Positions 16,046-49,620 of a DNA stretch of 64,000 bases are shown here, piece by piece; the stretch's first letter is position 1, and every line of letters begins with the position of its first letter. The notes under the pieces are model-generated. The model was not told the origin of the DNA. It worked only from the letters and a program-made list of their open reading frames with translations, and searched no databases. The DNA comes from Maricaulis maris (GTDB lineage Bacteria > Pseudomonadota > Alphaproteobacteria > Caulobacterales > Maricaulaceae): NCBI RefSeq assembly GCF_036322705.1, contig NZ_AP027270.1, forward strand, positions 862,501-926,500, written 5' to 3'. A program made the position numbers and the translations under genes.

Positions 16046-16119
16046 GCGGGTATAGCACAATGGTAGTGCAGCAGCCTTCCAAGCTGAGGATGCCGGTTCG
16101 ATCCCGACTACCCGCTCCA
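16046..16119 (+). tRNA. tRNA-Gly (anticodon UCC)
   Basis: A 74-base cloverleaf with encoded CCA. The acceptor arms are gcgggta and tacccgc, and the discriminator is T. The anticodon loop is cttccaa (anticodon TCC) between cagc and gctg, closely resembling E. coli glyT. The outermost anticodon-stem pair is a G-A mismatch. The T-arm is ccggttcgatcccga, with a non-standard closing pair. Confidence 0.95.
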
Positions 16120-16251: not shown

Positions 16252-16872
16252 ATGACGGATTTCCTTGCTCAGACCTCCGAAGCCTGGCTGCTGGCGAGCC
16301 TGTTCGCCGGCGCTCTTCTGGATGCCTTGCCGGGGCCGTGCCTGTTCGTATTTGGCGAAGTCTTTTTTCTGACGGCGGGCAATCTGGCTCACGAGACCGG
16401 GTCTGCCTGGCCGGTCCTTGCCGTTCTTGCCGGAGCCCTGATGGCCGACCAGATCGGCTATTTTCTCGGCAGCAAGTTGTCTGGAGCCTTGCGCCGCCTG
16501 GCGTTGCGGACCAGTCGACGCCGAGCCGCCTGGCGCCGGGCGCGGGCGGGTCTCGAAGCGCGGGCGATCCTGTTTGTCGCCGTCAGCCGATTGATGGGGC
16601 CTGTCGCGTGGATCACGCCGACCCTGGCCGGCAGCCTCGACATCTCCTGGCTTCGGTTCTCGATCGGGTCGCTGCTCGGCGTCCTGATCGGGGTTGGCCA
16701 GTTTGTGCTCTATGGATGGCTGCTGGCGGCCGGCTCCGGCCTCATCGGCTTCGATCTGGGCCGTTTCGTGATGACTCATGCCGCTTCCATCCTGATCGGA
16801 ACAAGCGCGCTGGGGTTTATGTCTGTTGTTATCTGGCGCGGGCTCGCCAGTCGCCCGCCGTCTGCTCGATGA
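16252..16872 (+). CDS. VTT/DedA-like integral membrane protein
   Basis: A 206-residue membrane protein resembling the DedA/SNARE-associated (VTT) family. Evidence is the segment GPCLFVFGEVFFLTAG...VLAVLAGALMADQIGYFLGSKL, with the acidic residue in GE and the DQxGYxxG pattern, and the later RLMGPVAWITPTLAGSLDISWLRF with the family's Arg-x-x-x-Pro-like loop. DedA proteins are linked to lipid carrier or phospholipid flipping and to proton-dependent membrane homeostasis. The start follows ataaggcg. Its 3' end overlaps the oppositely oriented glycosyltransferase by 44 bases. Confidence 0.82.
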   Translation: MTDFLAQTSEAWLLASLFAGALLDALPGPCLFVFGEVFFLTAGNLAHETGSAWPVLAVLAGALMADQIGYFLGSKLSGALRRLALRTSRRRAAWRRARAGLEARAILFVAVSRLMGPVAWITPTLAGSLDISWLRFSIGSLLGVLIGVGQFVLYGWLLAAGSGLIGFDLGRFVMTHAASILIGTSALGFMSVVIWRGLASRPPSAR

Positions 16873-18091
16873 TCCCGACAATGCGCTGTACCGCGCGCGC
16901 CGGGTCCGGCAGGCTGGCCGCCAGGCTTCGGGCTGCCCAACGGGTCTCGTCCGCCAGGGCGTGGCCGATCAGCATGTCGATCTCGTCGGCCTTTGGCCGC
17001 GGCGTTCTCGCATGCCCCGCTACGCCACGAGCGGTGAGCATGTGGGCGTTCCAGAACTGGTCGAGGACTTGCGGCAGAATGATCTGAGGGCAGCCGGCCC
17101 GGCTCGCCGTGTCCAGGGTTCCGGCGCCGCCATGGTGGATCACGGCCGCACAATGCGGGAAGAGATGGTCATGGGGCAGGGCGCCGGCAACGAAGTGCGG
17201 TCCGAGCGGGCCGGGGGGATGCCCGGCCAGGCTGGTCGCAATCACGGCCCTCTGGCCCGCCGCCTCGAGGCGCCCGAGCCAGGACGCCAGCAAGGCATCG
17301 CTGTCCGCTACCTCCATCGAGCCTAGCCCCAGATAAACAGGCGGCTGTCCGCTTGCGAGAAAGGCTGCGAGGGTCTCCGGGAGGGCGCTGTTTGGGGACT
17401 GCAGGGCCGGATAGTCGACCAGGTGGCTGGCCGGGTCAAAGTCGGCGGGTGACGTGACGCCGAGCGCCGCTGGCAGGGCGGTGAGCCGTGTCAGCGGCTC
17501 GCCAAGGTGACGACCCAGATTTGCGAAGCCGGGCCGGGGCACGGGAACGAGACGGCGTCTTGCCTTGCCGAGGCTGGCGGCGAGCCCGGCCAAGGCAAGG
17601 CTGACCGCCAGATAGCTGGCTTGGTTGAGCAGGGGCCCCATCGGCCGCCGGGCAATCATGGCGCAGGGCAGCGCACCGGTTGGTGTTATGACCGGCTGCA
17701 ATGCCATCAGGATGAAGGGCAGGCCGGCGTGTTCGGCGGCAATCCGGGCCGGCACGGCAATCGGATTGGCAAGGACCAGATCGGCACCGCGCGCGGCCTC
17801 GAGCGATCGCTCCAGTACATCCTCGAGATGGGGCCGGATCATCACCGGCCAGTCACGGAAGAAGCGGACTGGACCGCGCAGCGTGCCGCGCGCCCGCGAG
17901 CGCTGCATCCAGTCGCTGACGGAGAAGGCGGGCGGCGTGGCCACCTGCACGCCGAATTGCCGGATCAGGGCCGAATAGTCGCGGGGCGCCAACAGGCTGA
18001 TCGTGTGCCCGGCATCCATCAGGGCGCGCGCCAGGGTGAGAAACGGCAGGATGTCACCGCGCGTTCCGAGGGTCTGGATCGAGATCTTCAT
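16829..18091 (-). CDS. GT1-family glycosyltransferase (MGT/sterol-glucosyltransferase-like)
   Basis: A 420-residue GT-B glycosyltransferase. The N-terminus MKISIQTLGTRGDILPFLTLARAL is typical of the CAZy GT1 group that acts on lipophilic acceptors (macrolides, sterols, hydroxy fatty acids). The nucleotide-sugar site is HHGGAGTLDTASRAGCP...LPQVLDQFWNAHM, about residues 317-350, with the DQFWNA loop that contacts the sugar. No signal peptide is seen. Its ATG overlaps the adenylating-enzyme stop by 4 bases, so it is translated as the last gene of the five-gene cassette. Inference: it glycosylates the hydroxylated lipid or polyketide-like product of the upstream enzymes. Confidence 0.9.
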   Translation of the reverse strand: MKISIQTLGTRGDILPFLTLARALMDAGHTISLLAPRDYSALIRQFGVQVATPPAFSVSDWMQRSRARGTLRGPVRFFRDWPVMIRPHLEDVLERSLEAARGADLVLANPIAVPARIAAEHAGLPFILMALQPVITPTGALPCAMIARRPMGPLLNQASYLAVSLALAGLAASLGKARRRLVPVPRPGFANLGRHLGEPLTRLTALPAALGVTSPADFDPASHLVDYPALQSPNSALPETLAAFLASGQPPVYLGLGSMEVADSDALLASWLGRLEAAGQRAVIATSLAGHPPGPLGPHFVAGALPHDHLFPHCAAVIHHGGAGTLDTASRAGCPQIILPQVLDQFWNAHMLTARGVAGHARTPRPKADEIDMLIGHALADETRWAARSLAASLPDPARAVQRIVGIIEQTAGDWRARAR

Positions 18092-19368
18092 GGGCAGGAC
18101 CGGACCACACGGCGCAGCTTGCGGGCATCCGACACGGGCAGGGCCTCGGCCCGCGCGTCGATCTCGACCTGGGCCCCGTGGCGCACAAAGAGCGCGGACA
18201 GCGCCCGTTGGGCATCCGGCAGAGCGGCGGCACTCTGGCGCGGCAGGCGCAGGTCAACCCGATCCGGTGCGATCTGGGTGACACGGAAATCATTGATGCA
18301 GGGGCCCGCATCGATCACGGCATTGCGGATAACGTCCGGGGTTACCGCGACCGGGGGCAAGTCGGTGGCACCCGGAGGCCGGGCGAGCAGGAAGACATCA
18401 TCCATCCGGCCGACAACGGCGCGTACTACGGTAAAGGCGGATCCGCAGGGGCAGGGGGCGGGATCGAGGTCCAGCAGATCATTCATCCGGTAGCGCAGCA
18501 TGATCTGGCTGCGTCTTGTGAAGTCGGTGATGACGGGGGCGAGCAGGGTCTCGCTCCCGGGCGCAGTCTCCCACTCAAAGGCGACATGGTCTTCCAGCAG
18601 GTGGAGGCGGCCTTGCGGACAGGCCACGGCGAACAGACCCTCCGTCGCCATGTAGATCTCGCGAACGGGACTGCCGAAGCGGGCCTCGATGATCCGCCTG
18701 TCTGCCGGGTCGAGTACTTCGGCACCGGAAAACACATGGCGGGGCGCGAGCGCGCTGTCGCGCTCGGCGAGCCGGCGCAGGACCTTGGGCGGTGCGATCA
18801 CGACGTCCGGTCGCCAGGCTTCGACCGCGCTCGCCTGCCGGTCCAGCCCGTCATTGAGGTTGAAGAAGCGCAGGGCGAGGCGACCGCTTTCATTGGCGGC
18901 GTCATAGAGGCGGCTATTGGCCGACAGCATCACCGCAACGCGCAGGCGCTGACGCCAGAAACCGGGCAGGCCGCGCGCCAGGATGACGCCGAGCCAGGCA
19001 TGTCGTTCGGCGTCGGAAACAACATAGAAGCCGCGATTGCCGCTGGTGCCGGTGCTGGCGCCGACGGCAAAGCCGCGCGGTGCGGTGCCGTCCTGCCAGG
19101 CCTTGCGGGCCGCCTGCGCGTCCAGGCCCAGGATATTGTAGCGCTCGAACGCGGCCATCATCCCGGCCTTGTCGATCGGCGCATAAGCCTCCAGCCGGCG
19201 GCTGCCCTGGCCCTCATAAGCGGCGACGGCGGGAATTCGCCTGGCGAGGAAGTGCTTGAGTGACCGGGCCTGCCAGGCCTCGATCGCCGTCCGGCTGGTC
19301 AGTCGCGACGCGAGCCAGCGGGCCCGGGCATAGGCGGCGAGTATGTCGATCGCGGGCGGGCGGATCAT
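18088..19368 (-). CDS. Adenylate-forming enzyme, PaaK/F390-synthetase-like
   Basis: A 426-residue member of the adenylate-forming superfamily, close to phenylacetate-CoA ligase and coenzyme F390 synthetase-related proteins. Visible motifs are the phosphate-binding loop ASTGTSGNRG (104-113), YMATEGLFA (A5-like, about residue 240), MLRYRMNDLLDL (A7/A8-like) with a following CPCGS, and a short C-terminal domain. It would activate a carboxylate as acyl-AMP; whether the acceptor is CoA, a carrier protein or an intramolecular hydroxyl is not known. The ATG overlaps the MBL stop by 4 bases. A longer frame adding 15 residues upstream is less likely because it enlarges that overlap. Confidence 0.85.
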   Translation of the reverse strand: MIRPPAIDILAAYARARWLASRLTSRTAIEAWQARSLKHFLARRIPAVAAYEGQGSRRLEAYAPIDKAGMMAAFERYNILGLDAQAARKAWQDGTAPRGFAVGASTGTSGNRGFYVVSDAERHAWLGVILARGLPGFWRQRLRVAVMLSANSRLYDAANESGRLALRFFNLNDGLDRQASAVEAWRPDVVIAPPKVLRRLAERDSALAPRHVFSGAEVLDPADRRIIEARFGSPVREIYMATEGLFAVACPQGRLHLLEDHVAFEWETAPGSETLLAPVITDFTRRSQIMLRYRMNDLLDLDPAPCPCGSAFTVVRAVVGRMDDVFLLARPPGATDLPPVAVTPDVIRNAVIDAGPCINDFRVTQIAPDRVDLRLPRQSAAALPDAQRALSALFVRHGAQVEIDARAEALPVSDARKLRRVVRSCP

Positions 19369-20162
19369 CCGGTGGCCGATCCGTATTCGGGAAGGATGTC
19401 CGGGTCGTGGCAATAGATCACGGCGCCGCCCTGCTCGCTGAACTGGCGAATGCGCCGGGCGGTGGAGCGGGCGAGGTCGGCATCATCCAGGATCAGCGCC
19501 GCGGGGCCCCCGGGCTGGCGGTCTTCCATGACGGCCTGGTGCAGCCATTGTGCGTCGGCAGCATAGAGCAGGGGCGTCTCGAACTGCGTAAAGCACAGGC
19601 CGACATGGCCGCGCATATGACCCGGCAGCGGCACCGCGAGGACGCTGCCATCGCCAAACAGATCGCGGGCCGGTCCCAGTCCCAGCGGCGCCGGGCGCTC
19701 CGGGCAGGCGTTGATGTCCGCGATCCGGTCGAGCGCATCGGGCGGCAGCAATTCCGCGAAGACGCCATGCCGCAGCCGGATTGGTCCGGCCGCCAGATAG
19801 TGCTCAAGCGCCGTCTTGTCGGCGATGATGCGGGCATCGGGATAATCGCGCAGGGCCGCGACATGGTCGGCGTGCAGGTGGGTGAGGATGATCGTGCGGG
19901 CGTCCGGCTGCGCGTCCGGCAAGGTCGCCATGGTCAGGCGCGGTCGGAGCAGGGCCGCATAAATCCGCAGGGCAAATGAGCGAGGGCCGGTGGTGACCCG
20001 GTGATTATAGCCGGTATCGATCAGGCAGGTGCCCGCCGCGCCATGCTCGAAGACGCCGTAGCGCACCGGAATGTCCAGAATCTGTCCGCGACCGCCCTTC
20101 AGGACCAGCCATTCCGGAGCCCGAATGATGGCCGAGTTCGGAAAGCTGAGGCTATGGATCAT
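19365..20162 (-). CDS. Metallo-beta-lactamase-fold hydrolase
   Basis: A 265-residue MBL-fold enzyme with a complete two-metal site: HLHADH at 95-100, the second histidine region PGHMRGHVG (His182/His186), Asp203 in AADAQW and His252 in CHD near the C-terminus. Its layout (CLIDTGYNH, then LTHLHADHVAALRDYPDARI) resembles lactonase-like members of the superfamily. It starts inside the end of the SDR gene and ends inside the start of the adenylating-enzyme gene (4-base ATGA overlaps both times). In the cassette it may hydrolyse a thioester or lactone intermediate; this is inference. Confidence 0.9.
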   Translation of the reverse strand: MIHSLSFPNSAIIRAPEWLVLKGGRGQILDIPVRYGVFEHGAAGTCLIDTGYNHRVTTGPRSFALRIYAALLRPRLTMATLPDAQPDARTIILTHLHADHVAALRDYPDARIIADKTALEHYLAAGPIRLRHGVFAELLPPDALDRIADINACPERPAPLGLGPARDLFGDGSVLAVPLPGHMRGHVGLCFTQFETPLLYAADAQWLHQAVMEDRQPGGPAALILDDADLARSTARRIRQFSEQGGAVIYCHDPDILPEYGSATG

Positions 20163-21139
20163 GGCGACACCGTTGTGAAGGTCCGCTCCAGCCCGGTCTG
20201 GAAATCAATCCGGGGCGACCAGCGAAGTGTGTCGCGCGCGGCCGACAGGTCGAGGGTCTGGCTGAAAGCAAAAATGCCGATCCCGTAGGCGGTGACGGGC
20301 GGTTCGGGCCGGTGCGGCAGGCGACGGCAGATGGTCTCCGAAACACGGGCAGCACCGAGGGCCAGCGAGACCGGGAGCGGGCGCCAGCGAATGGACAGGC
20401 CGGTCCGGGCTGCTGCCGCCTCCACGATCTCCCGTATGGCCATCGGCTGGCCGCCGGAGATATTGAAAACCCGGCGTTCGGGACCGGCATTGGGCATGGG
20501 TGCGAGATCCAGCGCGGCTTCCACCGCGCTGACCACATCATCGACATGGGTCAGGTCGGTGACGGCCGCCCCGTCCCGCAGCAGCGGCAGGGCGCGGCTG
20601 GCCGCGGCTTTCAGGAGGCGCGGCAGTAGCGCTGTGTCACCCGCGCCGTAAAGCCCGCGCGGGCGCAGTAGAATGGGGTCCAGCGTGGTTTCGCCAAGAA
20701 CCAGTCCTTCCGCCTGTCGCTTGGTGCGGGCATAGCTGTTGACCGGCTCGCCCAGCGGCTGCTCCTCGCGCACATCAAGCTGGTCCGCGAAGCGGAAATA
20801 GACGCTGGGGGTCGAGATGTGAACAAAGCGACGCGCGCCGCGGGCCCGCGCCGAGTGCAGGACATGGCGGGTCCCGTCAACATTGGCTCGTTGGAAGGCC
20901 TGGTCCGGGCCCCACGGACTTGAGAGCGCCGCCGCATGGACGCAGGCATCGACGCGGTCTGTCGGGGGCAGGGGGGCGAGCGCGATATCGTGCGCGATTG
21001 TGTCCGCGCCGGCCTGCGCCAGGGCCTCCAGCCGATCCGCATTCCGTCCGACCGCGATCACGGTGTCGCCCCGGTCCAGTAGGCGCCGGACCAGATGGCC
21101 GCCGAGAAATCCTGTCGCGCCGGTGACCAGAATACGCAT
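20159..21139 (-). CDS. Extended short-chain dehydrogenase/reductase (NAD(P)-dependent)
   Basis: A 326-residue extended SDR. The Rossmann motif TGATGFLGG spans residues 6-14, VHAAALSSPWG is the typical acidic/Ala-rich loop, the catalytic serine lies in HISTPSVYF (about 109-112), and Tyr136-x-x-x-Lys140 sits in NSYARTK. The GG-Q-MAIREI segment and overall length fit the 3-beta-HSD/OleD-like reductases that act on 2-alkyl-3-keto acids and the NDP-sugar epimerases. Its position four bases after a KAS III-like gene favours reduction of a beta-keto product. The downstream MBL gene overlaps it by 4 bases. Confidence 0.9.
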   Translation of the reverse strand: MRILVTGATGFLGGHLVRRLLDRGDTVIAVGRNADRLEALAQAGADTIAHDIALAPLPPTDRVDACVHAAALSSPWGPDQAFQRANVDGTRHVLHSARARGARRFVHISTPSVYFRFADQLDVREEQPLGEPVNSYARTKRQAEGLVLGETTLDPILLRPRGLYGAGDTALLPRLLKAAASRALPLLRDGAAVTDLTHVDDVVSAVEAALDLAPMPNAGPERRVFNISGGQPMAIREIVEAAAARTGLSIRWRPLPVSLALGAARVSETICRRLPHRPEPPVTAYGIGIFAFSQTLDLSAARDTLRWSPRIDFQTGLERTFTTVSP

Positions 21140-21143
21140 GACG

Positions 21144-22193
21144 CTAGCTCTCCAGCCCGATGCCGCCCAGGGACAGGCCGGCCGAGGTGCCGATCATCAA
21201 TATCTTCATGCCCGGCCGGATCCGGCCCTCGGCGCGGGCGCTGGACAGAGCGACCGGAAGAGACGCGGCGATCAGGTTTCCCGTGTCGGCGACATGGTTG
21301 AAGACCCGGTCAGCATCAAAACCGCTGCGTCGGGCCATATGAGCGAGGGCGAGGGGTGAGGCCTGGTGGGGAATGACAAGATCGACCTCGTCGGCGCGCC
21401 AGCCCAACCGGTCAAGAAGGGACGCAATGAACGCAGGAAGCTTCTCGGCGGATAGGCGGAAAACCTCCGGCCCGTCCATCCGGAACAGGGCGTGGGCTGC
21501 GAAGGCTTCGCGCTCGGTCCGGAAGTCGAACCGCGTCCCGCCGGCCGCAAGGGCGCAGTAGTCGTACGCCTCGCAATGGGTTTCCATAAGCACGTCGCGG
21601 AGCCGAAGCTCGACGCTTGCCCCGGTGGCGTTGGCGGACACGACAAGGGCGGCGGCGCCGTCGCCAAACAGGCCGGCCGTCTTGGGGTCGGTGTCCCAGG
21701 GCAGAGCCCGGGACGCGATCTCGGAGGTAACCACCAGAACCGTCCTCGCGCGGCCACTGGCGATATGCAGGCTGGCGAGGTCAAGGGCCGTCAGGGCGCT
21801 CAGGCAGGTCGCGTTGACGTCATAGGCGGGAAAGGCAAGATCAGCCCCGCCCAGTTCGCGCTTCACAAGCGGCGCCGTCGCCGGGATGGGCTGACGCCCG
21901 ACCGCGGCGCCGAACAGCAGCAGGTCGATGTCGGCCATCGCGAGCCCGGCATCGTCAAGCGCCGCGCGAGCCGCCCGGGCGGCCATGGCTTCCTGACTGT
22001 CACCCGGGCCGGCGACGGTGCGGGAGCGGACGCCGCACAATCGTTCCAGCCAACCGGGCGTGCGGCCCAGCTCGCGGTCGATCTCCGTCGAATCACGGCG
22101 CCGCGAAGCGAGGCAGTGGGCGAGGCCGCGGATCACGGGCTGGATGTGTGTGTTCGACGCCCGGACCGGCTCGATCTGGCTGATTACCGACAT
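21144..22193 (-). CDS. KAS III-like thiolase-fold condensing enzyme
   Basis: A 349-residue condensing enzyme of the FabH/OleA branch. The catalytic triad is complete: Cys130 (VNATCLSAL), His276 (VIPHQAS) and Asn306 (DTGNLIAAS). The C-terminal IGTSAGLSLGGIGLES is the family's final loop. It would perform a decarboxylative or non-decarboxylative Claisen condensation on an acyl-CoA or acyl-ACP. The start follows ggaaagg; a longer frame adds eight residues. It is the first gene of the five-gene minus-strand cassette and is unlikely to be the housekeeping FabH, since plsX/ihfA neighbours are missing. Confidence 0.9.
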   Translation of the reverse strand: MSVISQIEPVRASNTHIQPVIRGLAHCLASRRRDSTEIDRELGRTPGWLERLCGVRSRTVAGPGDSQEAMAARAARAALDDAGLAMADIDLLLFGAAVGRQPIPATAPLVKRELGGADLAFPAYDVNATCLSALTALDLASLHIASGRARTVLVVTSEIASRALPWDTDPKTAGLFGDGAAALVVSANATGASVELRLRDVLMETHCEAYDYCALAAGGTRFDFRTEREAFAAHALFRMDGPEVFRLSAEKLPAFIASLLDRLGWRADEVDLVIPHQASPLALAHMARRSGFDADRVFNHVADTGNLIAASLPVALSSARAEGRIRPGMKILMIGTSAGLSLGGIGLES

Positions 22194-22620
22194 GATATGC
22201 GACCTTTCCGACGGCATCTCCGGAGAAACCGTAGTCAGTCGCGCCGGGGCAAGGCAAGAAAAAAGACAAGAGCCGTGAATCGTATTTACCTGATTTATAG
22301 ACGCTTTTTTCGGTCATGAGGCGTCGCGCAGGTGCCCGGGCCGGTCTGCCGGTGGAGAAAGCCGGCCCGAGCCATGCGATCGCCTCCGTCGAGGCTGAGG
22401 GCTCGGCGGTGGCCGGAGCGGCAAATACACGACGGGCCGGGCGCTCCGGTCGTTTCCGTTGACGATCTTGATGCGCGGTCTGCATTCGGGCTTGCATAGC
22501 CGGTCGGACCTTGTGTATCAGGCGCCATCCTAAACCGGGTGTGCGTGGCATGCCCATCCAATCAACCACCATGTCGATCGGCCATTCGTCTCCAGATCGA
22601 CGCTGTAGAGGTGAAGATCG
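22194..22620. other. Divergent intergenic region between the KAS III-like cassette and tufB
   Basis: About 430 bases without a convincing gene. The part next to the cassette (about 22250-22315) is conspicuously A/T-rich for this genome and contains tataaa on the minus strand near 22296, so it probably holds the cassette promoter. The tufB side has a weak sigma-70-like candidate (ttgcat at 22492, tatcag at 22516, spacing 18) and an untranslated leader of roughly 90 bases. A short minus-strand frame (22295-22561) has Arg/Ser-rich composition and no recognisable family; I reject it as a gene. Confidence 0.5.
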
Positions 22621-23811
22621 ATGGCGAAGGAAAAGTTTCAGCGGACTAAGCCGCACGCGAACATCGGCACGATTGGTCACGTTGACCATGGCAAGACGAC
22701 GCTGACGGCTGCGATCACGATGGTGCTGGCGGAAGCCTCCGGCGGTGTCGCGAAGGGTTATGACGAGATTGACAGCGCGCCTGAAGAGAAGGCGCGCGGC
22801 ATCACGATCTCGACGGCTCACGTCGAATACGAGACGGCGAACCGTCACTACGCACACGTCGATTGCCCGGGCCACGCTGACTATGTGAAGAACATGATCA
22901 CGGGCGCGGCACAGATGGACGGTGCCATTCTGGTTGTGAACGCCGCTGACGGCCCGATGCCGCAGACGCGTGAGCACATTCTTCTGGCTCGCCAGGTTGG
23001 CGTTCCGGCGCTTGTTGTCTTCCTGAACAAGGTTGACCAGGTTGACGATGAAGAGCTGCTCGAGCTGGTGGAAATGGAAGTTCGCGAACTTCTGTCCTCC
23101 TATGATTTCCCGGGCGACGATCTTCCGATCGTTGCGGGTTCGGCTCTGGCGGCTGTTGAAGGCCGTGACGACAATATCGGCAAGGACAAGATCCTTGAGC
23201 TGATGGCGGCAGTCGACGAATACATCCCGACGCCTGAGCGTCCGGTTGACCAGCCCTTCCTGATGCCGATCGAGGACGTGTTCTCGATTTCGGGCCGGGG
23301 TACGGTTGTGACCGGTCGTATCGAGCGCGGCATCGTCAAGGTTGGTGAAGAGATCGAAATCGTCGGTGTCCGTGACACCTCGAAGACGACCTGCACCGGC
23401 GTTGAGATGTTCCGCAAGCTGCTCGACCAGGGCCAGGCTGGCGACAATGTCGGCGTGCTTCTGCGCGGCGTGGATCGTGAAGGCGTTGAGCGCGGTCAGG
23501 TTCTGGCCAAGCCGGGCTCCATCACCCCGCACAAGAAGTTCGTGGCTGAAGCCTACATCCTGACCAAGGAAGAGGGCGGTCGTCACACCCCGTTCTTCAC
23601 CAATTACCGTCCGCAATTCTACTTCCGCACGACCGACGTCACCGGCGTCGTGACGCTGAACGAAGGTACGGAAATGGTGATGCCGGGCGACAACATCGAA
23701 ATGAATGTCGAACTGATCGTGCCGATCGCCATGGAAGAGAAGCTCCGCTTCGCTATCCGTGAAGGTGGCCGCACCGTCGGCGCCGGCGTCGTCTCGAAGA
23801 TCATCGAGTAG
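22621..23811 (+). CDS. tufB: Elongation factor Tu, copy B
   Basis: A 396-residue GTPase that delivers aminoacyl-tRNA to the ribosome. G1 is GHVDHGKTT, switch I is [12 protein letters not shown] (Pro54 present), G3 is DCPGHADY and G4 is NKVD. Compared with the copy at 48430-49620 I find one difference, codon 58 GCG here and GCA there, both alanine. Sequence identity begins at the ATG and ends within a few bases of the stop, while the flanks are unrelated. It is monocistronic by appearance, with its own terminator. Confidence 0.98.
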
Positions 23812-48376: not shown

Positions 48377-48429
48377 GCGGACCTCTGGTCACAGTAAAAC
48401 AACGAACACACGGATTTCGGAGCGAGATC

Positions 48430-49620
48430 ATGGCGAAGGAAAAGTTTCAGCGGACTAAGCCGCACGCGAACATCGGCACGATTGGTCACGTTGACCATGG
48501 CAAGACGACGCTGACGGCTGCGATCACGATGGTGCTGGCGGAAGCCTCCGGCGGTGTCGCGAAGGGTTATGACGAGATTGACAGCGCGCCTGAAGAGAAG
48601 GCACGCGGCATCACGATCTCGACGGCTCACGTCGAATACGAGACGGCGAACCGTCACTACGCACACGTCGATTGCCCGGGCCACGCTGACTATGTGAAGA
48701 ACATGATCACGGGCGCGGCACAGATGGACGGTGCCATTCTGGTTGTGAACGCCGCTGACGGCCCGATGCCGCAGACGCGTGAGCACATTCTTCTGGCTCG
48801 CCAGGTTGGCGTTCCGGCGCTTGTTGTCTTCCTGAACAAGGTTGACCAGGTTGACGATGAAGAGCTGCTCGAGCTGGTGGAAATGGAAGTTCGCGAACTT
48901 CTGTCCTCCTATGATTTCCCGGGCGACGATCTTCCGATCGTTGCGGGTTCGGCTCTGGCGGCTGTTGAAGGCCGTGACGACAATATCGGCAAGGACAAGA
49001 TCCTTGAGCTGATGGCGGCAGTCGACGAATACATCCCGACGCCTGAGCGTCCGGTTGACCAGCCCTTCCTGATGCCGATCGAGGACGTGTTCTCGATTTC
49101 GGGCCGGGGTACGGTTGTGACCGGTCGTATCGAGCGCGGCATCGTCAAGGTTGGTGAAGAGATCGAAATCGTCGGTGTCCGTGACACCTCGAAGACGACC
49201 TGCACCGGCGTTGAGATGTTCCGCAAGCTGCTCGACCAGGGCCAGGCTGGCGACAATGTCGGCGTGCTTCTGCGCGGCGTGGATCGTGAAGGCGTTGAGC
49301 GCGGTCAGGTTCTGGCCAAGCCGGGCTCCATCACCCCGCACAAGAAGTTCGTGGCTGAAGCCTACATCCTGACCAAGGAAGAGGGCGGTCGTCACACCCC
49401 GTTCTTCACCAATTACCGTCCGCAATTCTACTTCCGCACGACCGACGTCACCGGCGTCGTGACGCTGAACGAAGGTACGGAAATGGTGATGCCGGGCGAC
49501 AACATCGAAATGAATGTCGAACTGATCGTGCCGATCGCCATGGAAGAGAAGCTCCGCTTCGCTATCCGTGAAGGTGGCCGCACCGTCGGCGCCGGCGTCG
49601 TCTCGAAGATCATCGAGTAG
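48430..49620 (+). CDS. tufA: Elongation factor Tu, copy A (str operon)
   Basis: A 396-residue product identical to that of tufB. The gene sits 53 bases after fusA, its ancestral place. The only nucleotide difference found between the copies is base 48603 (A here, G in tufB), silent at Ala58. All GTPase motifs are intact, including switch I with Pro54. Confidence 0.98.

Follow-up and report, generated by a model that had tools for sequence, protein, structure and literature searches.

OleABCD clusters bring together a condensing enzyme, a short-chain dehydrogenase/reductase (SDR), a hydrolase and an adenylating enzyme. The PqsA/PqsD/PqsE pathway combines a KAS III-type ketosynthase (KAS) with a thioesterase of the metallo-beta-lactamase (MBL) fold and an adenylating enzyme; we know of no SDR in it. 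For MxnB and CorB, the ketosynthases of myxopyronin and corallopyronin, no SDR, MBL or F390-like partner is known to us. Here we describe a block of five genes in a window of 64,000 nucleotides (C1:862501-926500) from the 3.14-Mb single-contig genome of Maricaulis maris. It brings together the same four kinds of enzyme as OleABCD clusters, built from different parts: its KAS is not OleA-like, an MBL-fold enzyme stands in place of the alpha/beta hydrolase OleB, a PaaK-fold ligase in place of OleC, and a putative cap-adding gene follows. The KAS III, SDR, MBL and F390-synthetase-related ligase genes constitute a conserved core, and the last gene varies between groups of bacteria. All five open reading frames lie on the minus strand, within positions 16829-22193 of the window, in this order:

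21144-22193, minus strand: KAS III ketosynthase of the MxnB/CorB branch, 349 amino acids, core gene 1 (Cys-His-Asn triad, family profile, tree)
20159-21139, minus strand: extended SDR, OleD-related, 326 amino acids, core gene 2 (Ser109-Tyr136-Lys140; best NCBIfam model OleD, below its cut-off)
19365-20162, minus strand: MBL-fold hydrolase, lactonase-related, with a complete two-metal site, 265 amino acids, core gene 3 (HxHxDH~H~D~H)
18088-19368, minus strand: F390-synthetase-related adenylate-forming ligase with a PaaK fold, 426 amino acids, core gene 4 (TIGR02304, Foldseek)
16829-18091, minus strand: GT1/GT28-type glycosyltransferase, 420 amino acids, exchangeable fifth gene (Pfam domains)

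The KAS and SDR genes are separated by four bases (the joint reads TAG-CGTC-ATG), and the three other joints, SDR/MBL, MBL/ligase and ligase/glycosyltransferase, are all ATGA overlaps, exactly as a sequence-only reading of this DNA had described. The KAS may start at 22193 or at an in-frame ATG at 22217. That reading had also called the catalytic motifs intact, and they are conserved in the full-length relatives (KAS 85/85, MBL 89/89, SDR 86/86, ligase 88/88; these and later conservation counts use full-length rows and exclude L028, L035, L036 and L109). Compared with three congeners, all five genes are under purifying selection (dN 0.16-0.40, dS 0.84-2.0, 15 comparisons). The notion of a five-gene cassette held for the coupling of the genes and gave way in one respect: the unit consists of four core genes and a last gene that can be exchanged.

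The recurrence of the set in distant bacteria, which the same reading had put forward as a check, is borne out by neighbourhoods far outside the genus. In a sample of 200 Pseudomonadota genomes, the ligase profile matches five, one being the window's own, and in 5/5 of these the cassette KAS lies less than 2 kb from the ligase on the same contig; the KAS profile matches six, the sixth being G210. With the ligase as query, GTDB genomes yielded at least 574 confirmed candidates, and the best 80 of 574 were kept, so that the loci lean towards close relatives. Among 97 loci with a ligase match (the window excluded; L035, L036 and L109 dropped because they repeat the contigs of L029, L026 and L025; L181 of genome G114, which probably repeats L087, kept), an SDR is present in 94, an MBL in 94 and a KAS in 92. 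The five without a KAS (L042, L048, L049, L062 and L096) every one reach a contig end. The ligase is on the opposite strand, with accessory genes between it and the rest of the core, in 11 of the 96 loci listed. Over 52 loci, the pairwise identities of each core protein follow those of the other three (r 0.71-0.86, against at most 0.28 in label shuffles), a correlation to which shared species history contributes.

The core spreads over alphaproteobacteria (Maricaulis, rhizobia, roseobacters, sphingomonads), some Bacillota, E. coli and a few metagenome-assembled genomes of other phyla. The latter are labelled Acidobacteriota (L037), Vulcanimicrobiota (L112) and Flavobacteriaceae (L102), with mis-binning possible. 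Plasmid records with a ligase match number 68, and we opened the neighbourhoods of seven. The order KAS-SDR-MBL-ligase, with short gaps or overlaps, is found on plasmids of Roseateles, Shinella, E. coli KE48, Ketogulonicigenium and Paracoccus; a Pontibacillus plasmid has KAS-(ATP-grasp)-SDR-MBL-ligase, and on a plasmid of Pseudomonas sp. Leaf58 the core genes are scattered across about 9 kb. Four of 199 Bacillota genomes exceed the KAS threshold, and three of them carry the core with an ATP-grasp gene, including the centre of the sample, which was picked because it bears the cassette (its cluster is L113). The fourth, G437, has an ordinary FabH after a PlsX-family gene and was not counted.

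In E. coli, the four-gene core is present in 672 of 5,426 complete genomes, the probiotic Nissle 1917 included, at a coverage of at least 80% that attests presence and not the intactness of each copy. Nearly all its places (670/672) are chromosomal. The E. coli form follows narI of narGHJI, with two tyrosine tRNA genes beyond it in Nissle 1917, and in at least one listed genome (H44) it is split by an IS66-like element. A seven-gene form, in which PAP2, fatty acid hydroxylase and acyl-CoA desaturase genes join the core, occurs on the KE48 plasmid (L018 5185-12066) and on the Nissle 1917 chromosome (L178 6001-12882).

What accompanies the core differs from group to group. We counted accessory genes within the fetched stretch of the 97 loci, for the families used as queries. 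The commonest company is a GNAT-like protein, an ATP-grasp and a Rieske protein (52/97); none of the tested GNAT-like proteins matches a Pfam or NCBIfam model, and their name comes from a plasmid record. A glycosyltransferase alone is found in nine loci, GNAT-like and ATP-grasp in nine, a sulfotransferase in four, DUF3419 alone or with others in eight, and the trio of PAP2, fatty acid hydroxylase and acyl-CoA desaturase in two; other mixes also occur, and six loci have none of the queried families. The nine other loci with a glycosyltransferase beside the core belong to five Maricaulis, two Hyphomonas and two further alphaproteobacteria, the gene lying 0-45 bp from a core gene; elsewhere it is absent or replaced. 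In the window, the glycosyltransferase exceeds the Pfam cut-offs for the EryCIII-like C-terminal domain PF06722 (59.2 vs 31.7 bits) and the GT28 N-terminal domain PF03033 (32.7 vs 26.2 bits), and its best solved relatives include GtfB (1iir), GtfA and a sterol 3-beta-glucosyltransferase (5gl5). The BtaA-like DUF3419 gene lies at most 1 kb from a core gene in L024 (G002), L027 (G005), L037, L057, L066, L083, L097 and L101, and the sulfotransferase adjoins the core in two of its four loci.

Known glycosyltransferases and sulfotransferases modify hydroxyls. Because transferases of the glycosyl, sulfo and BtaA types act on hydroxyls in their known members, the core product would expose a hydroxyl as well. 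According to PMC10685587, a homologue of betaine-lipid synthase is annotated as DUF3419, and BtaA converts diacylglycerol and S-adenosylmethionine to diacylglycerol-O-homoserine. The DUF3419 neighbour suggests that the core product bears an aminocarboxypropyl head group.

We propose that the block is an accessory operon devoted to a single lipid-like metabolite, in which two acyl chains are joined, hydroxylated and given a clade-specific cap, here a sugar. In the first step, an acyl chain would be loaded on Cys130 of the KAS III and condensed with a second acyl thioester to a beta-keto compound, probably in the head-to-head manner of the related MxnB and CorB. The SDR would use NAD(P)H to turn a keto group into a hydroxyl, and the MBL enzyme would cleave the thioester, or open a lactone, to a free acid. 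This acid may then be adenylated with ATP by the PaaK-fold ligase and joined to an acceptor as an ester, an amide or a lactone. Finally, the glycosyltransferase would place a sugar on the exposed hydroxyl; other clades may add a sulfate, a 3-amino-3-carboxypropyl group or a different cap. The data establish the conserved core with its linkage, the intact active sites, the placement of the enzymes in families, the separate housekeeping FabH and the exchange of the last gene; the sequence of the reactions, their substrates and the final product are inferred. That the five genes together make a dedicated acyl-derived product is very probable, in keeping with the lipid-type pathway that had been suggested from the sequence, which we judge likely. 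Given such a product, we lean slightly towards the condensation of two chains. The order of the MBL and ligase steps is proposed with little confidence, and we hold the complete scheme, cap included, to be evenly balanced between right and wrong.

The case for two chains comes from the KAS. Its likeness to MxnB and CorB comprises the KAS III fold, the catalytic triad, a hydrophobic residue at the position of OleA Glu117, six shared residues and nesting in the tree. The triad Cys130-His276-Asn306 is kept in 85/85 rows. At the Glu117 position the cassette proteins have Ile (50), Leu (33) or Val (2), the window having Ile; the mapping is backed by an OleA relative, in which 26 residues separate this position from the catalytic Cys, as between 117 and 143, and titles of OleA structures name both C143 and E117. 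According to PMC4578411, Glu117 of OleA and Glu105 of PpyS act as a base, MxnB and CorB have Val at this position, perhaps because the nucleophile sits between two carbonyls, and the paper's own tree places both within the FabH clade. MxnB joins two carrier-bound chains in vitro, according to PMC5724707. The KAS family profile gives 315.9 bits to MxnB (4v2p) and 307.1 to CorB (4yuc), followed by 268.8 for the best FabH, from Aquifex, 171.3 for PqsD and 126.2 for OleA. Six residues, G47, Q101, N127, G219, F255 and T336, are common to the cassette KAS and MxnB/CorB and absent from the one FabH and the one OleA compared.

In a tree of 44 rows, for which 24 of 52 selected cassette rows were used, 16 FabH proteins form one clade (99/97), and the 24 cassette KAS with MxnB and CorB form the other (87/92). 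Within it, MxnB and CorB stand inside the cassette clade, beside the Bacillota cassettes (90/82). The two OleA rows are set apart from FabH and cassette KAS together by a branch of 2.59 (100/100). By family and clade, the cassette KAS is thus of MxnB/CorB type, and condensation of two chains is a prediction from its sequence.

Several observations weigh against the two-chain scheme. When the window KAS is searched by itself, FabH proteins (4ryb, 151.2 bits; 2ebd, 135.2) rank over MxnB (134.7), and therefore it is the profile, the tree and the signature residues that carry the case for MxnB/CorB; the branches joining these two with the cassette KAS (87/92 and 90/82) are themselves below the starred level. 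The AlphaFold model of the KAS (pLDDT 89.2) fits MxnB and CorB first and FabH nearly equally (TMt 0.92-0.93 vs about 0.90-0.93). Neither an acyl carrier protein (ACP) nor a polyketide synthase (PKS) is encoded in the cassette. The MBL enzyme points by sequence to lactonases rather than to the thioesterase PqsE, yet without the lactonase Tyr. The GNAT-like, ATP-grasp and Rieske company of 52 of the 97 loci gives no plain pointer to a hydroxyl cap, and two of the four sulfotransferase genes are divergent and 0.7 kb off the core. G210 (L179 7401-10216) has KAS-MBL-SDR with no ligase match, possibly a reduced form of the core.

Part of this evidence would suit a linear pathway, in which the KAS elongates a single acyl-CoA with malonyl-ACP in the way of FabH, and the beta-keto acid is released by the MBL enzyme and reduced by the SDR to a beta-hydroxy acid. 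Once the ligase has activated this acid, the glycosyltransferase would make a hydroxy fatty acid or ester that simply carries a sugar. Such a pathway makes the fewest substrate assumptions and accords with the FabH-like triad, the missing OleA-type glutamate, the FabH proteins heading the single-sequence search and the near-equal structural fit. However, the profile, the tree and the signature residues part the cassette family from FabH and group it with MxnB/CorB, and the Asn of the FabH motif PHQAN is Ser in 84 of 85 cassette KAS; we consider the linear pathway rather doubtful. The cassette KAS stays below the cut-off of the FabH model TIGR00747 (182.2 vs 292.1 bits) and falls outside the FabH clade. 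A separate FabH is encoded at C1:1394745 in the same genome (404.8 bits), after a PlsX-family gene, which rules out that the cassette KAS is the genome's sole FabH, part of the case in which the sequence-only reading held a dedicated pathway to be unlikely. Two further, distantly related KAS III-like proteins are encoded in the genome, with about 3 kb between them (C1:1955673 and C1:1958602; L033).

The two-chain scheme leaves the MBL step as thioester cleavage or lactone opening. The seven metal ligands of the MBL enzyme (HxHxDH~H~D~H) are present in 89/89 rows, and its best solved relatives are N-acylhomoserine lactonases, although no lactonase model passes its NCBIfam cut-off. Three residues after the metal-binding Asp, at the position of the catalytic Tyr of lactonases (AiiA Tyr194), the family has Trp in 86 rows, Phe in two and Tyr in one. 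As Trp replaces Tyr in 86/89, hydrolysis of lactones in the manner of N-acylhomoserine lactonases is uncertain. A PqsE-type thioesterase was considered and set aside for its weak similarity (28-29 bits).

These enzymes could also make a small diffusible signal or antibiotic, similar to an alpha-pyrone, a butyrolactone or an alkylquinolone: the KAS would join two short chains, the MBL enzyme would act as thioesterase or lactonase, and the glycosyltransferase or sulfotransferase would modify the product for export. MxnB and CorB yield alpha-pyrones, the closest relatives of the MBL enzyme are lactonases acting on signal molecules, a TetR-type regulator is ahead of the cassette in Ketogulonicigenium and Paracoccus, and the pqs pathway likewise pairs a KAS III and an MBL thioesterase with an adenylating ligase. 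The window cassette, on the other hand, has no internal regulator; its MBL enzyme is much closer to lactonases than to PqsE, and its KAS profile scores PqsD far below MxnB (171 vs 316 bits). The hydroxylase, desaturase and PAP2 of the E. coli version suggest a long-chain membrane product instead, and we regard a signal or antibiotic as unlikely.

An ole-type pathway with swapped parts, leading to a beta-lactone or an olefin, is very improbable. The roles do pair one to one with OleA-D, and OleD (NF042422) is the best NCBIfam model of the SDR, at 188.6 bits. This is about one third of the cut-off of 580, which is not passed, and an SDR of G246 scores higher (256.8 bits) with no KAS, MBL or F390-like match in the 14 kb around it (L141). 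Likeness to OleA and OleD was weighed as proof of an ole pathway and dismissed, Glu117 being absent and the SDR score weak. The suggestion of the sequence-only reading that the OleA role appears kept is not supported: the glutamate is replaced in all 85 rows, OleA is distant in the tree, and among solved structures MxnB and CorB come closest to the family profile. Moreover, the ligase matches TIGR02304, and OleC- or OleB-named models are absent among the NCBIfam matches of the ligase and the MBL enzyme at E <= 0.01, the library's content for such models being unchecked. SDRs of other genomes in group f36, to which L141 (G246) belongs, also score above the window SDR with the OleD model (about 235-257 bits).

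In the SDR, Ser109, Tyr136 and Lys140, as well as Arg32, are invariant in 86/86 rows; from Arg32, the enzyme is perhaps of the NADPH type. We dropped a nucleotide-sugar role for it since it travels with acyl enzymes. In the ligase, S105, G107-G110 and Lys417 are kept in 88/88 rows and Cys306/Cys308 in 87/88. The phosphate loop, TEG motif, GRxDD and C-terminal lysine are each found in 87-88 of 88 and make up an adenylate-forming signature. The window protein lies just under the TIGR02304 cut-off (251.2 vs 251.9 bits), which 7 of the 61 relatives' genomes searched pass, the window's own standing outside those. Its model (pLDDT 92.9) finds PaaK1 first in Foldseek (E 3.7e-21, TM 0.56-0.57, rmsd 12.9), the high rmsd probably coming from differently set domains; BT_0428, NatL2, AjiA1 and, lower, ClxA follow. 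The assignment to F390-synthetase relatives with a PaaK fold, already made from the sequence, is thereby upheld. NatL2, AjiA1 and ClxA, PaaK-like enzymes, are the best matches in fold and sequence after PaaK and BT_0428, at about 15-22% identity, and the structures of NatL2 and ClxA hold aromatic acids according to their titles. A non-acyl pathway, in nucleotide-sugar or aromatic metabolism with a stray KAS, could appeal to these ligands and to the broad epimerase superfamily of the SDR, and it is scarcely credible given that KAS, SDR, MBL and ligase co-travel across phyla and that their E. coli neighbours are lipid enzymes.

The superfamily of each enzyme and two-chain KAS III chemistry are already known; the combination is a variant for which we found no earlier account. 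Text searches over 5.39 million open papers, with most subscription papers outside, returned no account of the cassette, which is not proof of absence in print. Two candidate accounts were discarded: judging from passages, PMC5501837 deals with phenol degradation and names just one gene for a 'coenzyme F390 synthetase', and PMC10849742 concerns another enzyme. MxnB and CorB are reported to act on carrier-bound polyketide chains, whereas the cassette core has no carrier protein gene. Tentatively, the locus may represent an undescribed and widespread class of lipid clusters, in which a four-enzyme core, headed by a free-standing MxnB/CorB-type KAS, fuses two ordinary acyl chains without a PKS to give a hydroxylated lipid of two chains, lineage-specific polar caps are added, and the myxopyronin and corallopyronin ketosynthases were recruited from that lipid family. 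If so, the cap would be a sugar in Maricaulis and a sulfate, an aminocarboxypropyl group or others elsewhere, with an oxidised and desaturated form in E. coli. The cassette KAS family is a possible source of these two ketosynthases.

If the product is a lipid or a signal, it has escaped notice even in bacteria that rank among the most closely studied, the carrier Nissle 1917 among them. TIGR02304 is a family name without a tested function and, to our knowledge, no function is established for this F390 synthetase-related family; here it is tied to a conserved pathway, which offers a function to test.

Within Maricaulis, the core is accessory. Eight of 19 genomes, some of them incomplete, have a cassette-type KAS, and the identical eight carry the ligase. 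Six have the version with a glycosyltransferase; G002 and G005 have Rieske and DUF3419 genes in its place. The sequence-only reading placed the cassette between a glycine tRNA and tuf. Both do flank it, and the interval also holds a DedA-like gene:

16046-16119, plus strand: tRNA-Gly(tcc), left edge of the occupied interval
16252-16872, plus strand: DedA-like membrane protein with a VTT domain (Pfam VTT_dom, 37.8 bits vs cut-off 33.9)
22621-23811, plus strand: tuf, bounding the occupied interval on the right

In the window, G001, G011, G014 and G018, the space from tRNA-Gly to tuf is taken up by the cassette together with the DedA-like gene, which converges tail to tail with the glycosyltransferase; in G012 the cassette is seen with the tuf side only. 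Without the cassette, the distance from tRNA-Gly to tuf is 228 bp in G015 and 261 bp in G004. G002 (L152) has about 2.1 kb of other DNA in this interval and G017 (L151) about 1.7 kb, neither with a match to the core, so the site may take up different inserts.

A simple scan of the block found no sigma-70-like promoter (0.6 in shuffles) and four terminator-like elements (3.1 in shuffles), nothing above chance. The G+C content per kb is 0.675-0.696 across the cassette (17000-21999) and 0.594-0.667 in its flanks. A second tuf lies at about 48425-49620 of the window and is 100% identical to the copy at 22621-23811 over the compared stretch.

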